Part shown: positions 3,746 through 34,337 of the stretch, piece by piece
How the letters are laid out: each line of letters begins with the position of its first letter
Position numbering within the stretch: the first letter of the stretch is position 1
NCBI GenBank assembly: GCA_012518875.1
Contig: JAAYRI010000040.1
Coordinates: 1 to 43,643, forward strand
DNA length: 43,643 bases
Direction of reading: 5' to 3'
Source of the DNA: Peptococcaceae bacterium
GTDB taxonomy: Bacteria > Bacillota > Desulfotomaculia > Desulfotomaculales > Pelotomaculaceae
Made by a program: the position numbers and the translations under genes
Notes under the pieces: generated by a model
Told to the model about the DNA's origin: nothing
Database searches by the model: none
What the model saw: the letters and a program-made list of their open reading frames with translations, nothing else

Positions 3746-4190
3746 AAATGTGATTACTATTCCAGAAGGTGCTTCCATTGAAGAGGCAGCCCTAATTCTA
3801 ACGGAAAACAACATCTCTGGCGCCCCGGTAGTAAACCCGAAAGGGAAGCTGGTAGGTATGGTAACTGAGGAGGATCTGCTGCACCAGGAAACAAATCCCA
3901 GGGCACCGGCCTTCCTGAATATCCTTGGTGCTTTTATTTATGTTAATGGGTTGGAAAGATACCGGGATGACTTTAAAAAGCTAGCCGCCACCAGTACCAC
4001 TGAGATTATGACCAGGGATTTAATCACCGCCCCTGGGAATATCACTATTGAGGAGGTAGCGGCACTGATGATCGAACACAATATTAAACGGGTGCCGGTA
4101 GTTGATCATGGTGACATCATTGGTATCATCAGCCGGGCAGACATCATCAAAACCCTGGCTAAAAAAGCCCCGCCTCAGCAAAATAGATAG
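3720..4190 (+). CDS. Tandem CBS-domain protein
   Basis: A 156-residue protein made almost entirely of two CBS domains (about residues 5-60 and 95-150) joined by a linker containing the AFLNILGAFIYVNG stretch typical of stand-alone CBS proteins. Such pairs bind adenine nucleotides (AMP, ATP, SAM) and act as energy or ligand sensors. The ATG at 3720 is preceded by AGAGGTGA, so it is favoured over the in-frame GTG at 3711 that overlaps this ribosome binding site. The gene starts inside the TauE/SafE gene, so the two proteins are probably made together; a regulatory role for the permease is an inference from this overlap. Confidence 0.9.
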   Translation: MLAREIMNKNVITIPEGASIEEAALILTENNISGAPVVNPKGKLVGMVTEEDLLHQETNPRAPAFLNILGAFIYVNGLERYRDDFKKLAATSTTEIMTRDLITAPGNITIEEVAALMIEHNIKRVPVVDHGDIIGIISRADIIKTLAKKAPPQQNR

Positions 4191-28605: not shown

Positions 28606-29478
28606 CTATTGTTTCTCCGGCCCGCTGTAATCCTGAATAATGGCGGCAATATGGCCATGGTCATTTTTTTGCGCCAGGGTCAGTGCTGTATCACCCTGAT
28701 CTGTTTTTGCAGTGACATCTGCGCCCCTCTCCAGCAGGAGCTCCACCACGTCTTTGCGTCCAGTTTCCACCGCTGCCATCAAGGCCGTCCAGCCCCCTTT
28801 GCTCCTGTCATTCACCCTGGCCCCATGATCCAGCAACAGCCTGGCCCCTTTGTAATGGCCATAGAAAGCAGCCCATATCAGGGGGGTTTCCTGACTTTCA
28901 TTACAGGCGTTCACATCCCCACCGCCCTTGATCATTTCCTCCAACCACCCGATATCGCCAATCCGGGCGGCATAAATTAGGTCCGCATTTTGAAAAGAAC
29001 CAGCCCTGTGTAGGATCCTTATCAGCTGGCGGTTCCCCTTCTGTTTGGCCAGATCCAGGGCTGTCCACCCCTTGTCGTTTTTAACGTCAATTTTAGCTCC
29101 CTTTTCCAGCAGATATAGGGTCATCTCCTTGCTGTCAGTGTAAATGGCAGCCATTAGCGGGGTTAACCCCTGTTCATCACCGGCGTTCACATCGGCACCA
29201 CCCTCAACCAGCATCCGGGCAATGTCCCCATTGGCAACATTCTGCAGGGCAGCCATTAATACAGTAACGCCGCCTTTGCCCCGCAGGTTTACATCTGCCC
29301 CCAGATCCAACAACTCTTTGACCACATGCAGGTGCCCAAAAAATGCCGCATGGATCAAGGGAGTCATGCCATTTTCATCCTGTGCATTTATGTCCATGCC
29401 TTTTTCCCGCACCAGATACCTGATTTTTTCCGCAGGATCCCCCTTGCCGGCAGCTCTGATCAGTTTATTTACAGCCAA
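28606..29478 (-). CDS. Ankyrin-repeat protein
   Basis: A 290-residue soluble protein made of about eight ankyrin repeats, recognised by recurrent GMTPLIHAAFFGH, GLTPLMAAIYTD, GWTALDLAKQKGN and GWTALMAAVETGR segments spaced about 33 residues apart. Such repeats bind other proteins; no enzymatic domain or signal peptide is present. The TTG start at 29478 follows AGGAGAGGA closely. It is divergent from tex and not obviously in an operon. The partner protein is unknown. Confidence 0.9.
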   Translation of the reverse strand: MAVNKLIRAAGKGDPAEKIRYLVREKGMDINAQDENGMTPLIHAAFFGHLHVVKELLDLGADVNLRGKGGVTVLMAALQNVANGDIARMLVEGGADVNAGDEQGLTPLMAAIYTDSKEMTLYLLEKGAKIDVKNDKGWTALDLAKQKGNRQLIRILHRAGSFQNADLIYAARIGDIGWLEEMIKGGGDVNACNESQETPLIWAAFYGHYKGARLLLDHGARVNDRSKGGWTALMAAVETGRKDVVELLLERGADVTAKTDQGDTALTLAQKNDHGHIAAIIQDYSGPEKQ

Positions 29479-29693
29479 TTATCCTCTCCTCTCCTTTCCA
29501 ACAAAAATCAGGGTCATACATACCTTAATTCCCGAAATAACTAATGATACCTCTTAATTATTAGCCCATTGCACCAAACAGGCAGCACTATTTCCCTGAT
29601 CTGGGCCGGCCTGAAAAGGGAAAATACTTGCAGCCTGTTACAAAAGATAATAATATAGGAAAAACTACCTCTGCAAAAGGAAAGGAACATATA

Positions 29694-31859
29694 TTGAACA
29701 AAGACCAGGTTGATATCATCGCCATCATCGCTAAGGAAACGGGCATCCAACAGCAAAAGGTAACTAGTACCGTCAAGCTGCTGGCAGATAACACCATCCC
29801 TTTTATTGCCCGTTATCGCAAAGAACAAACTGGTGAACTGGATGAAGAACAAATCCGCAGTATCGATGAACTGCACAAACACTATACCAGCCTGTCCCAG
29901 CGCAAGGCGGAAATAATCCGTTTGATAGACGAACAGGGCTGGCTGACCAGCGAGCTGCAGGCTAAAATAGCCGGCTGTACAAAACTCTCCCAGCTAGAGG
30001 ATTTATATCTACCTTACAGGCCCAAGCGTAAAACCAGGGCTGGTGTGGCCAGGGATAATGAGCTGGAACCTTTGGCCGCCTACCTTTTGTCCCTGCCTGC
30101 CTCCGGCAACCCAGAACAGGAGGCTCAGGCTTATATCTCTGAGTCTGTTCCCACAACAGAAGAAGCTTTGCAGGGGGCGATGGACATTGTCGCCGAAATT
30201 GTCGCCGAGGACGCCGATGTGCGCAGTTGGATACGCAACCAGACCAGGCGCACCGGTCGACTGATCACCAGTGGACGCAACACTATGGAGGACCAGACCT
30301 ATCGCGATTATTATGTTTACAGTGAACCAGTAGGTAAAATCCCACCCCACCGGGTGCTGGCCATTAACAGAGGGGAAAGGGAGGAGGTACTCAGTGTCTC
30401 CGTTGCAGTGGATGAAGTATCGATTTTAAACTGGCTGGGAAGCAGATATTTAAAAAAAGCCTCTGCAACTGCTGCTTACGTGGAAAAAGCAATCAGGGAC
30501 GGCTATAAAAGACTCCTGGCACCCTCGATCCAACGGGATATCCGCAACGAGCTCACGGAAAAAGCGGCCGCCCAGGCAATCAAGGTGTTTTCCCAAAACC
30601 TGCGTAGCCTGCTGCTACAGCCGCCGGTACGTGGTAAGGTGGTCCTGGGTATAGACCCGGCTTACCGTACCGGCTGCAAATGGTGCGTCATTGATGATAC
30701 GGGAAAGCTTTTAGAGACAGGCGTTTTCTACCCTACGCCTCCCCAGAAAAAAACCGGAGAATCGGCAGCAGTTCTATCCCACCTGGTAAACAAGTACGGG
30801 ATTACAGCAATTGTCATCGGCAACGGCACAGCCTCCAGAGAAACAGAGCTCTTTGTAGCGGAATTTATCAAATCCTTTCACCAGCCGGACCTGACCTACA
30901 CTATCGTCAACGAGGCTGGGGCCAGCGTTTATTCTGCCTCCAAACTGGCCAAAAAAGAATTCCCCACCCTGGATGTGTCGGCAAGAGGCGCAGTCTCCAT
31001 TGCCCGCCGCATTCAAGATCCTCTGTCCGAATTAGTAAAAATCGAACCCCGGGCAGTGGGTGTAGGCCAGTACCAGCATGACCTGCCTCCAAAACAGCTG
31101 GATCAAAAACTGTCTGAGGTTGTGGAATCAGTGGTCAACTATGTTGGTGTTGACCTGAATACGGCATCTGCACAACTGCTGAGTTATGTTGCCGGCATCA
31201 AACCAGCAGTGGCTACCAATATTGTCCACTACCGTGATCAAAAAGGCCCTTTCAGGAGCCGCCGGGAGTTGACTGGTATACCCAGGCTGGGGCCCAAGAC
31301 ATTTGAACAATGTGCCGGCTTTTTGCGCATTAGCAGCGGGGAGAACCCGCTGGATGCCACAGCCATACACCCGGAGTCATACGACCTGGCCGGCCGCTTC
31401 CTGGATCTGATCGGTACCAGTTTGCATGAAATTGGCAGCCCAAGCGCCAGGTCCAAAATTGCCGGGGCCAATCTGGAAAAAATCGCGGCGCAACTAAACA
31501 CCGGCGTCCCCACTCTGCGAGACGTTGCCGACAGCCTGGCCCGGCCGGACCGGGACCCCCGGGAAGACCTGCCCCGGCCGGTTTTCCGCACCGACATCCT
31601 CAGTCTGGAAGATTTGCAGCCGGGCATGGAGCTTACCGGCACTGTCCGCAACGTGGTGGATTTTGGTGCCTTTGTGGATATCGGTATAAAAAATGACGGG
31701 CTGGTGCACATCTCCCAACTGTCAGACAACCGCATAGGACATCCGCTGGATGTAGTATCAGTGGGGGATGTTATCCAGGTATGGGTGCTGGCGGTGGATA
31801 CAGAAAGAGGCCGCGTCTCCCTGTCTATGAAAAAGCCTGGCCGGCTGAATGACTGCTAA
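29694..31859 (+). CDS. tex: Tex-family S1 RNA-binding transcription accessory protein
   Basis: A 721-residue Tex protein. The order is the helical N-terminal region with IPFIARYRKEQTGELDE, a YqgF-like RNase H fold beginning around VVLGIDPAYRTGCKW, helix-hairpin-helix motifs (NIVHYRDQKGPFRSR and GIPRLGPKTFEQCAGFLRI), and a C-terminal S1 domain (LTGTVRNVVDFGAFVDIG). Tex binds nucleic acids and affects transcription and toxin gene expression in some bacteria. TTG 29694 was chosen because AAAGGAAAGGA lies close upstream and the family N-terminus MNKDQVDIIAIIAKETG follows; a TTG at 29628 is a weaker option. A selenoprotein gene follows after 29 bases. Confidence 0.94.
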   Translation: MNKDQVDIIAIIAKETGIQQQKVTSTVKLLADNTIPFIARYRKEQTGELDEEQIRSIDELHKHYTSLSQRKAEIIRLIDEQGWLTSELQAKIAGCTKLSQLEDLYLPYRPKRKTRAGVARDNELEPLAAYLLSLPASGNPEQEAQAYISESVPTTEEALQGAMDIVAEIVAEDADVRSWIRNQTRRTGRLITSGRNTMEDQTYRDYYVYSEPVGKIPPHRVLAINRGEREEVLSVSVAVDEVSILNWLGSRYLKKASATAAYVEKAIRDGYKRLLAPSIQRDIRNELTEKAAAQAIKVFSQNLRSLLLQPPVRGKVVLGIDPAYRTGCKWCVIDDTGKLLETGVFYPTPPQKKTGESAAVLSHLVNKYGITAIVIGNGTASRETELFVAEFIKSFHQPDLTYTIVNEAGASVYSASKLAKKEFPTLDVSARGAVSIARRIQDPLSELVKIEPRAVGVGQYQHDLPPKQLDQKLSEVVESVVNYVGVDLNTASAQLLSYVAGIKPAVATNIVHYRDQKGPFRSRRELTGIPRLGPKTFEQCAGFLRISSGENPLDATAIHPESYDLAGRFLDLIGTSLHEIGSPSARSKIAGANLEKIAAQLNTGVPTLRDVADSLARPDRDPREDLPRPVFRTDILSLEDLQPGMELTGTVRNVVDFGAFVDIGIKNDGLVHISQLSDNRIGHPLDVVSVGDVIQVWVLAVDTERGRVSLSMKKPGRLNDC

Positions 31860-31888
31860 TAAAACAAAACAAATGTGGAGGAAAAGGC

Positions 31889-32233
31889 ATGCTGAAATTT
31901 TATTGCTTTCCCACCTGAACCACCTGCCGCAAAGCGAAAGCGTGGCTTTCGGAAAAAGAAGCCGATTATATTTACCATAACATCGTTAAGGAACCGCCCA
32001 CTACTGGGGAACTGTTTGCCCTGGCTGGACTGGGCGGTGTAAAAATGCACGAACTACTCAACAAAAGAAGCAAGACCTATAGGGATTTGAAAATCAACGC
32101 CAAAGACTTGTCTGAGAATGAAATGGCGGAGATTTTATCCGCCCACCCCAAAGCCATGTTCCGTCCCCTGCTCACCGATGGGGAAAAACTGGTGATAGGA
32201 TTCAAACCAGAACAAATGGAGACCATGCTGTAG
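31889..32233 (+). CDS. Probable selenoprotein: ArsC/Spx-like reductase with Sec at the catalytic position (in-frame TGA)
   Basis: The frame from ATG 31889 (GGAGG seven bases upstream) encodes an ArsC/Spx-family thioredoxin-fold protein of 114 residues if the TGA at 31916-31918 is read as selenocysteine. Residue 10 is then U in FYCFPT-U-TTCRKAKAWL, exactly the position of the redox-active cysteine of the family's CxxC motif; Cys13 is retained. The rest of the frame is intact to the TAG at 32231, including the family RP pair in MFRPLL near residue 92. A SECIS-like hairpin follows the TGA. It is downstream of tex and before a terminator. A nonsense mutation is the alternative, but would have to hit this codon by chance. 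Confidence 0.8.
31926..31946 (+). promoter_or_regulatory. Candidate bacterial SECIS element
   Basis: Immediately after the TGA, GCCGC (31926-31930) pairs with GTGGC (31942-31946, one G-U pair), with an AAA bulge, then a GC/GC pair closing a GAAA loop. The apical G is 17 bases after the TGA, within the range reported for bacterial SECIS hairpins. Folding was done by eye. Confidence 0.5.
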
Positions 32234-32273
32234 GTGGCAACCTCCGTATTTGCTTGCCCTGTGCATTGCCGCC

Positions 32274-32294
32274 GGCACCTGGCGGTGCCTTTTT
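32274..32294 (+). terminator. Intrinsic terminator after the selenoprotein gene
   Basis: GGCACC (32274-32279) and GGTGCC (32284-32289) form a perfect stem with a TGGC loop, followed by five T residues. It separates the tex/selenoprotein unit from htpG. Confidence 0.88.
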
Positions 32295-32318
32295 CGCTAA
32301 TTTTTCTACCCACCTATC

Positions 32319-32347
32319 TTGACACTTCAAGCGGCCAATTTTATACT
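32319..32347 (+). promoter_or_regulatory. Strong sigma-A promoter of htpG
   Basis: A perfect TTGACA (32319-32324) and TATACT (32342-32347) are 17 bases apart. Transcription should start near 32354, giving a leader of about 125 bases that includes a GCCCC/GGGGC hairpin around 32390-32415. Confidence 0.8.
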
Positions 32348-32477: not shown

Positions 32478-34337
32478 ATGCCTGAAGCTGGTACTGCCCA
32501 GCAATTCGAAAAAAAAGAGTTTCAAACTGAGGTCAAAAGACTGCTGGATATTGTCATTAATTCCCTCTACACAGACCGGGAAATTTTTCTGCGGGAACTC
32601 ATCTCCAACAGTGCCGACGCCCTGGAAAAGCTACGCTATCAATCAGTAGTCAATAAGGAGATCGCAGGTAAAGACCTGCCCCTGGAAATCTCCATCCAGC
32701 CAGACGATAAGGAGCATACCATTACCATTACTGATACCGGTATTGGTATGACCAGGGACGAATTGGTAGAAAATCTAGGCACCATCGCTCATTCTGGATC
32801 CAAAACATTCATTCAGCAGCTCAATGAATCAGAGCAAAAAGACCTCAGCCTGATTGGCCAGTTTGGTGTAGGCTTTTACTCCGCCTTTATGGTGGCCAAG
32901 AAAATAAGGCTGCTCACCCGCTCCTATCTCCCCAACGAGACTGGTTGTGAATGGGTTTCCGAAGGTCTCGGCAGCTACGATATGCGTGGGGTGGGGGATC
33001 TGCCCAGAGGAACAAAAATTATTCTGGAGCTAAAGGAAGACGCCTATGAGTTTGCCGGGGAGGCAAGGATCAAGGAAATAATCAGGGAATACTCCAGTTT
33101 TGTACCCTTCCCCATCAAAGTCAACGGAGAGCAGGTCAATACTGTCCAGGCCATTTGGACGCGCAACAAAAACGAAGTGACGGAAGAAGAATATAATGAG
33201 TTTTACAAATTCGTCGCCACCGCCCATGACGAACCACTTTACCGGCTGCATTTTACCGCTGATGCGCCCCTGGCCATCAATGCCCTTTTGTTTGTGCCCC
33301 AAAATAATTTTGAACGATTCGGTTTTGGCCGGATGGAACCAGGCACAAACCTATACAGCCGAAAAATTCTCATCCAGCCCCATTCAGAAAGCATCCTGCC
33401 CGAATGGCTGCGTTTTGTCAAAGGTATAGTGGACAGCGAAGATATCCCTCTTAACATCTCCCGTGAAACTGCCCAGGATAGCGCCCTAATCGCCAGACTG
33501 AGGAGAGTGATCACCGGGCGTTTTCTCAAGTTCCTGGACAAGGAAGCCCAGGACGACCCTGAAAAATACGCCGAATTCTGGTCCAGGTTCAGTATGTTTA
33601 TCAAGGAAGGGGCCACAACAGACTTTACCCATCGCCAGGATCTGACGAAACTGCTCCGGTTTGAATCCTCAGCGGCAGAACCCGGCCAGCTAATCTCACT
33701 GGCTGATTACGTCGACCGGATGAAAGAGGGGCAAAAGGACATCTATTTCACCAATGGGCCCACCAGGGAAAGCATTGAGGCCGGACCCTATATAGAGGCT
33801 TTTCGGGCCGCTGGTTTCGAGGTCATTTACAACTACGAACCAATAGATGATTTTATTTTTAGCAATCTTGGTGAATACGAGGAGAAAAAATTTGTTTCCG
33901 CTGATCGGGCTGGTCTGGAACTGCCTGATCTGGAGGAAAAAGCGGGGGAAGAACCCCTTGATAGTGAAAAAACAGGCGCCCTCACCACCTGGTTCAAAGA
34001 AGCCCTGGGGGATCGGGTCAGTGAGGTAAAGGCTTCTAAACGGCTGGTGGAAAGCCCGGCGATTATCCTTAATTTAAACCCCATGATCACCAGCAGCATG
34101 GAGCGGGTAATGCAGGTTGCCAACCAGGACATCTCCCACATGGGCGGTAAGGCCCTGGAAATCAACACCAGACACAAGCTGATCAAAAAGCTGGATACTC
34201 TGCGGGAAAAGGACCCGGAATTTGCCCGCACTGTTGCGGAGCAGATTTTTGATCATGCTCTAATCGCCGCCGGTCTGGTGGTCAACCCTCTGGACATGGT
34301 GGAACGTGTCAACCAAATTCTGGAAAAGGCGCTATGA
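32478..34337 (+). CDS. htpG: HtpG, bacterial Hsp90 molecular chaperone
   Basis: A full-length 619-residue Hsp90. The N-terminal GHKL ATPase domain has NSLYTDREIFLRELISNSAD (catalytic glutamate and Mg-binding asparagine), DTGIGMT and GQFGVGFYSAFMV. The middle domain has LNISRETAQD with the conserved arginine region, and a C-terminal dimerisation domain ends the protein. It assists folding and remodelling of client proteins in the cytosol with DnaK. ATG 32478 follows GGAGGTG. It is preceded by a strong sigma-A promoter and a CtsR-like repeat, suggesting heat regulation, and is monocistronic. Confidence 0.98.
   Translation: MPEAGTAQQFEKKEFQTEVKRLLDIVINSLYTDREIFLRELISNSADALEKLRYQSVVNKEIAGKDLPLEISIQPDDKEHTITITDTGIGMTRDELVENLGTIAHSGSKTFIQQLNESEQKDLSLIGQFGVGFYSAFMVAKKIRLLTRSYLPNETGCEWVSEGLGSYDMRGVGDLPRGTKIILELKEDAYEFAGEARIKEIIREYSSFVPFPIKVNGEQVNTVQAIWTRNKNEVTEEEYNEFYKFVATAHDEPLYRLHFTADAPLAINALLFVPQNNFERFGFGRMEPGTNLYSRKILIQPHSESILPEWLRFVKGIVDSEDIPLNISRETAQDSALIARLRRVITGRFLKFLDKEAQDDPEKYAEFWSRFSMFIKEGATTDFTHRQDLTKLLRFESSAAEPGQLISLADYVDRMKEGQKDIYFTNGPTRESIEAGPYIEAFRAAGFEVIYNYEPIDDFIFSNLGEYEEKKFVSADRAGLELPDLEEKAGEEPLDSEKTGALTTWFKEALGDRVSEVKASKRLVESPAIILNLNPMITSSMERVMQVANQDISHMGGKALEINTRHKLIKKLDTLREKDPEFARTVAEQIFDHALIAAGLVVNPLDMVERVNQILEKAL

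Follow-up and report, generated by a model that had tools for sequence, protein, structure and literature searches.

Proteins of the ArsC/Spx fold with selenocysteine (Sec) were already known by 2006–2008. A listing from 2006 includes ArsC-like selenoproteins (PMC1794560), and a 2008 study of the GOS ocean metagenome described two Sec groups, of which 'Arsenate reductase 2' corresponded to cd03032 (ArsC_Spx) and carried a UxxC motif (PMC2398784). A 2026 review gives the Sec ArsC families as TIGR00014 (UxxS) and NF041106, 'arsenate reductase-like' (UxxC) (PMC13188914); the GOS 'Arsenate reductase 2' group is probably the NF041106 family of that review. Prx/SelW and Prx-like/AhpD selenoprotein pairs are also mentioned in the literature. 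Here we describe a gene of the ArsC/Spx fold whose clade, termed clade A below, escapes the cut-offs of both NF041106 and TIGR00014.

The window, i.e., the whole stretch of DNA analysed, comprised 43,643 nucleotides from a Peptococcaceae bacterium (GenBank assembly GCA_012518875.1, contig JAAYRI010000040.1); its relevant features are collected in Table 1. The preliminary description had reported a complete 114-codon frame with a strong ribosome binding site, interrupted by a single TGA, and our coordinates and translation agreed with it. Readthrough translation began MLKFYCFPTUTTCRKAKAWL, and the gene stopped at a TAG (32231–32233). Position 10 aligned without gaps with Cys10 of Spx, which places the TGA on the redox-active cysteine of the CxxC motif (U-T-T-C), as had been proposed. 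Likewise, beyond the TGA the next ATG in frame was the one at 32045 from which a 62-residue fragment had been predicted. Ribosome binding sites comparable to that of the window were found in most homologues. In other genes of the window TGA is a normal stop: HtpG and another gene end in it, which ruled out a general reassignment of this codon.

Table 1. Coordinates of the Sec gene, its signals and its neighbours in the window.
Feature	Coordinates	Strand	Remarks
Tex (S1/YqgF/HHH RNA-binding protein), upstream neighbour	29628–31859	+	29 bp before the Sec gene
Ribosome binding site GGAGG	31877–31881	+	7 nt spacer to the ATG at 31889
Sec-containing ArsC/Spx-like protein gene	31889–32233	+	114 aa, Sec at residue 10 (C6-x3-U10-T-T-C13)
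In-frame TGA (Sec codon)	31916–31918	+	catalytic Cys position, codon 10
Candidate SECIS hairpin CGAAAGC[GUG]GCUUUCG	31935–31951	+	7-bp stem, loop 31942–31944, 23 nt after the UGA
Intrinsic-terminator-like hairpin with T tract	32267–32296	+	between the Sec gene and htpG; pattern scan only
HtpG (Hsp90), downstream neighbour	32478–34337	+	promoter-like site at 32319–32347

The gene tex is probably co-transcribed with the Sec gene. Tex and HtpG were considered as functional partners and rejected, because neither lay next to the Sec gene outside the genus. An ankyrin-repeat protein was encoded just upstream of tex (28606–29478, minus strand), and it also occurred near the Sec gene in four other loci of the genus.

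We scanned named genomes, one per species, with a query alignment that omitted residue 10, and obtained 80 loci. Codon 10 was TGA in 42 of these homologues, TGT in 22, TGC in 16 and any other codon in none. This distribution excluded chance as the origin of the TGA, as the preliminary description had argued, and its expectation that an alignment would show Cys or Sec at residue 10 was borne out. A search of 150 relatives showed that all six genomes of the genus carried the gene with exactly one TGA (61–99% identity), and that TGA homologues extended beyond the genus down to about 28% identity. The TGA column was identical throughout the aligned Sec homologues. No second stop was found inside the aligned frame in any of the 80 homologues, and values of dN/dS downstream of the SECIS region (about 0.06–0.4) indicated purifying selection; the rest of the frame was intact, as first claimed. 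The same description had stated that Sec-containing ArsC-like proteins appear in surveys but are rare. Their listing in 2006–2008 supports the first part of that statement; they are, however, commoner than it implied, and clade A is almost entirely Sec.

The gene could in principle be a pseudogene, an ordinary gene truncated by a chance TGA, or the product of a sequencing error, and the presence of a stop codon is what speaks for this, nothing more. Against it stand a TGA kept at one site across the genus and across families, the restriction of codon 10 to TGA, TGT and TGC, the purifying selection downstream, and the Sec machinery in the genome (see below). We concluded that the pseudogene and sequencing error accounts were refuted by TGA conservation, selection and machinery, leaving this alternative a negligible chance, and that the window gene is almost certainly a genuine selenoprotein gene, judging from comparative sequence evidence. 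Two genomes of one genus (L026 and L027, genus g5) encoded near-identical ArsC-like proteins with a catalytic Cys in one and TGA in the other, pointing to a recent Cys/Sec exchange.

The published model of a bacterial SECIS has a loop of 3–9 nt, a stem of at least 4 bp, a G in the first two loop positions, a distance of 16–37 nt from the UGA and an MFE of at most −7.5 (PMC13188914). The candidate hairpin in the window agreed with this model in stem, loop and distance (Table 1), and in homologues that share its core (L064, L066) the isolated hairpin had an energy of about −8.1 kcal/mol. In other Sec genes of the fold, a second type of hairpin, roughly AAGCCAA[GGC]UUGGCUU, occupied almost the same position. 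At least five consecutive pairs of either hairpin were present in 40 of 43 Sec genes versus 1 of 38 Cys genes, a count for which the two structures were picked after inspection. Scored by the published model against synonymous-codon shuffles, Sec genes of clade A had a mean z of 2.0 and Cys genes of −0.3; the window hairpin scored above 97.6% of its own shuffles. Codons 16–20 (GCG AAA GCG TGG CTT) were nearly fixed in the window's clade and scattered among Cys relatives, while across the same Sec genes GCG accounted for 21% of the Ala codons and CTT for 17% of the Leu codons. When the window sequence was folded on its own by minimum free energy, other folds were preferred, with unremarkable stability (z −0.7 to −1.3); the SECIS was singled out by the alignment, the contrast between Sec and Cys genes, and the codon shuffles, not by single-sequence folding. 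Rfam gave no match in the window, and its SECIS_1 model (RF00031), which matched nothing in the control genomes either, was uninformative. The suggestion that a SECIS would lie within 31916–31960 was supported by a SECIS-type hairpin at 31935–31951, present in Sec genes and missing from Cys genes.

Most of the Sec machinery was found in the window's metagenome-assembled genome (MAG; G000, 2.12 Mb, 80% complete). It carried tRNA-Sec (C78:13042–13135, 68.8 bits), selB (C194:5085–6971, 361 bits) and, adjoining selB, selA (C194:7017–8396, 612 bits). The proposed check for Sec machinery was thus positive for these three genes and negative for selD, which was found neither in this 80%-complete MAG nor in G001. 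Four of the five other genomes of the genus (G002–G005) contained selD, with an in-frame TGA of its own.

A maximum-likelihood tree built from 81 proteins over 118 columns, with many forks unresolved, placed the window protein in clade A, which comprised 39 Sec proteins and 1 Cys protein with support of 93/98, just under the tree's own bootstrap bar. Its hosts were Desulfotomaculaceae, Syntrophomonadaceae, Desulfitobacteriaceae and further Firmicutes, including syntrophs and other anaerobes. The remaining 37 Cys proteins fell outside the clade. We rejected the idea that the lone Cys member (L073) marks a loss of Sec decoding: its genome retains selA, so such a loss does not explain the Cys. 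One clade-A gene (L075) came from a bin named Candidatus Sumerlaeota; because its protein grouped with those of Firmicutes, the contig may be misbinned. A second Sec group of the fold, with the pattern 'YPRUxTVKKAK...NTSG' and no resolving Cys (UxTV), was found in other families of the order (L012, L014–L020, L022–L025).

The window protein matched Pfam ArsC (75.8 bits, cut-off 24) and TIGR01617, Spx/MgsR (89.1 bits, cut-off 75.05). It aligned without gaps to residues 1–111 of B. subtilis-type Spx, with U10 on Cys10 and C13 on Cys13. A structure model (pLDDT 96) had Spx and ArsC-family folds as its nearest structures. The protein scored 28 bits with NF041106 (ArsC_rel_Se_1; cut-off 85), for which the best value among 38 clade members was E 4e-10. 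Residues C6, U/C10, T12, C13, N58, R92 and P93 were invariant in the clade; C6 was present in 40 of 40 clade members versus 9 of 41 others. Within the genus of the window, the Sec protein was the sole full-length member of TIGR01617, and no separate Spx was seen. Short TIGR01617-like matches with an in-frame TGA were observed in two genomes of the genus (G004:C95:7573–7692 and G001:C236:5635–5754); these are perhaps a small Uxx-star/glutaredoxin-type selenoprotein.

Membership of Pfam ArsC, and the naming of Sec forms as arsenate reductases in selenoproteome surveys, would fit a Sec enzyme that detoxifies arsenate as a glutaredoxin-dependent reductase of the ArsC type. The key residues argued otherwise. 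In a tentative ArsC alignment, N58 and about F105 occupy the positions of two of the ArsC arginines. Only R92, the equivalent of Arg94, was retained of the Arg60/Arg94/Arg107 triad of E. coli ArsC (PMC3169414), to which identity was about 19% in the structure comparison, and TIGR00014 gave 50 bits against a cut-off of 106. We consider this function very unlikely. The label 'ArsC/Spx-like' is sound as a family assignment, but its first half does not denote an arsenate reductase, since two arginines of the arsenate-binding triad are absent.

A second possibility is a selenium-containing Spx regulator, in which a U10–C13 redox switch would control RNA polymerase binding and act as a hypersensitive oxidant sensor. 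The closest fold match was Spx in complex with the alpha subunit of RNA polymerase, the TIGR01617 score was above its cut-off, and the window protein had both R60 and K62, which are needed for activation by B. subtilis Spx (PMC2801614). However, R60 was kept in merely 12 of 40 and K62 in 19 of 40 clade members. All three Spx-specific NCBIfam models were below their cut-offs with the window protein (NF002459, 84/123 bits; NF009210, 85/159; NF009885, 60/152), and the C-terminal tail beyond about residue 114 was missing. Moreover, Gly52, the polymerase-contact residue of Spx, was replaced by K52 in the window protein and by K, T, S or E across the clade. Among Spx mutants, G52R is treated separately in PMC2801614. 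This change breaks the RNA polymerase contact of Spx. We regard a regulatory role as improbable, if less so than arsenate reduction. Because the arsenate triad is incomplete and Gly52 is missing, and the arsC and Spx-specific cut-offs were not reached, what remains is a thiol/selenol oxidoreductase.

The gene neighbourhood suggested a partner for such an enzyme. In 13 clade-A members, the next upstream gene on the same strand, 14–134 bp away, encoded an AhpC-type peroxiredoxin, which itself had TGA (Sec) as the peroxidatic residue (FTFVUPTE) and was identified as PrxU (NF040737, 367 bits versus a cut-off of 270). Where the locus extended at least 700 nt upstream, PrxU lay directly upstream in 12 of 33 clade-A loci (21 were without it) versus 0 of 40 others. 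PrxU was divergent and adjoined the Sec gene in L089, and in L067 and L080 a PerR/Fur-type gene, recognised by eye from the sequence rather than by profile, directly preceded the pair. PrxU and the Sec gene look like one operon in several relatives. At L069, what looks like a decayed PrxU, a short stretch of its C-terminus (3874–3951), immediately precedes the Sec gene. The recurrence of PrxU as neighbour also spoke against the Spx regulator, as did the lack of recognised ars genes among recurrent neighbours against the arsenate reductase. Of the 150 relatives, PrxU was present in 7 of the 8 with a clade-A gene and in about 22 of the other 142, counts that are not independent of phylogeny. Against PrxU as partner, one genome of the genus (G002, 85% complete) yielded no PrxU, and throughout the genus the Sec gene adjoins tex instead. 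The PrxU of the window's genome, with its own TGA, lay on another contig (G000:C197:1731–2318; L139:1710–2429), where the TGA after FTFV split it in the ORF lists. PrpU of E. acidaminophilum was considered as a known companion of PrxU and rejected, as this CxxU protein is encoded in an operon for glycine decarboxylase (PMC4056300). In the open-licence papers searched, we found no report of PrxU paired with an ArsC/Spx-like selenoprotein; an earlier report may exist.

The linkage could also be incidental to a broader role, with the protein acting as a general Sec glutaredoxin-like thiol reductase (YffB type, dependent on glutathione or another low-molecular-weight thiol) that serves many proteins and is not specific for PrxU. 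Bm-YffB binds glutathione and likewise has one of the three arginines (PMC3169414), adjacent PrxU is absent from most clade members, and tex takes its place in the window. On the other side, PrxU adjacency recurred in several families and in no case beside the mostly Cys relatives. We judge a general reductase unlikely, yet the most credible of these alternatives.

Our best explanation is that the protein is a selenol/thiol oxidoreductase in peroxide defence, probably the electron donor to PrxU, and we favour this reading with some reserve. Comparative genomics supports a model in which SelB, guided by the hairpin just after the UGA, inserts Sec at residue 10. The U10 selenolate would then attack the oxidised partner to give a mixed selenenylsulfide, which C13 would resolve; the invariant C6 is perhaps a third redox or relay residue. 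Given the position of PrxU directly upstream in relatives, the Sec protein would donate electrons to PrxU in peroxide detoxification. PrxU is the likeliest partner on the sequence data, at roughly even chances. NCBI names the PrxU family 'thioredoxin-dependent', so another donor may serve it. More tentatively, and with the balance somewhat against it, clade A may form a dedicated two-selenoprotein peroxide-reduction module in which the C6-U10-C13 triad would pass electrons to PrxU, selenol to selenol. In strict anaerobes this module, governed by a PerR-type regulator, would take the place of AhpF/thioredoxin.

Standard gene callers can be expected to predict only the 62-residue fragment, which would hide a redox protein conserved among anaerobic Firmicutes, syntrophic propionate degraders included. 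If the pairing with PrxU holds, a Sec peroxiredoxin gains an electron donor that can be tested directly, and the relay would be a case of selenium use by both proteins. L073, the clade's Cys member, and the L026/L027 pair lend themselves to asking what advantage Sec has over Cys.

Comparison with known systems places the window protein beside several families. It shares with GOS 'Arsenate reductase 2'/NF041106 the Sec in first position of UxxC and an ArsC/Spx-type thioredoxin fold, but it comes from anaerobic Firmicutes, and its clade has an invariant C6 and, in several relatives, the pairing with PrxU. With E. coli ArsC it has the catalytic position and overall fold in common; it lacks two of the three arsenate-binding arginines and falls below the TIGR00014 cut-off. 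YffB/ArsC-like reductases (cd03035, cd03036) share the fold, the single ArsC arginine (R92) and the proposed thiol-reductase chemistry; a difference is that Bm-YffB contains just one Cys (PMC3169414), against a resolving Cys13 and a Cys6 in the window protein. With Spx/MgsR it shares the fold, the 111-residue gap-free alignment, the redox pair 10/13 and TIGR01617, whereas it has Sec in place of Cys10, no Gly52 and no C-terminal tail, R60 and K62 being partly kept in the clade. PrxU (NF040737), like the window protein, is a UGA-decoded selenoprotein, but it belongs to a different family, the AhpC-type peroxiredoxins.
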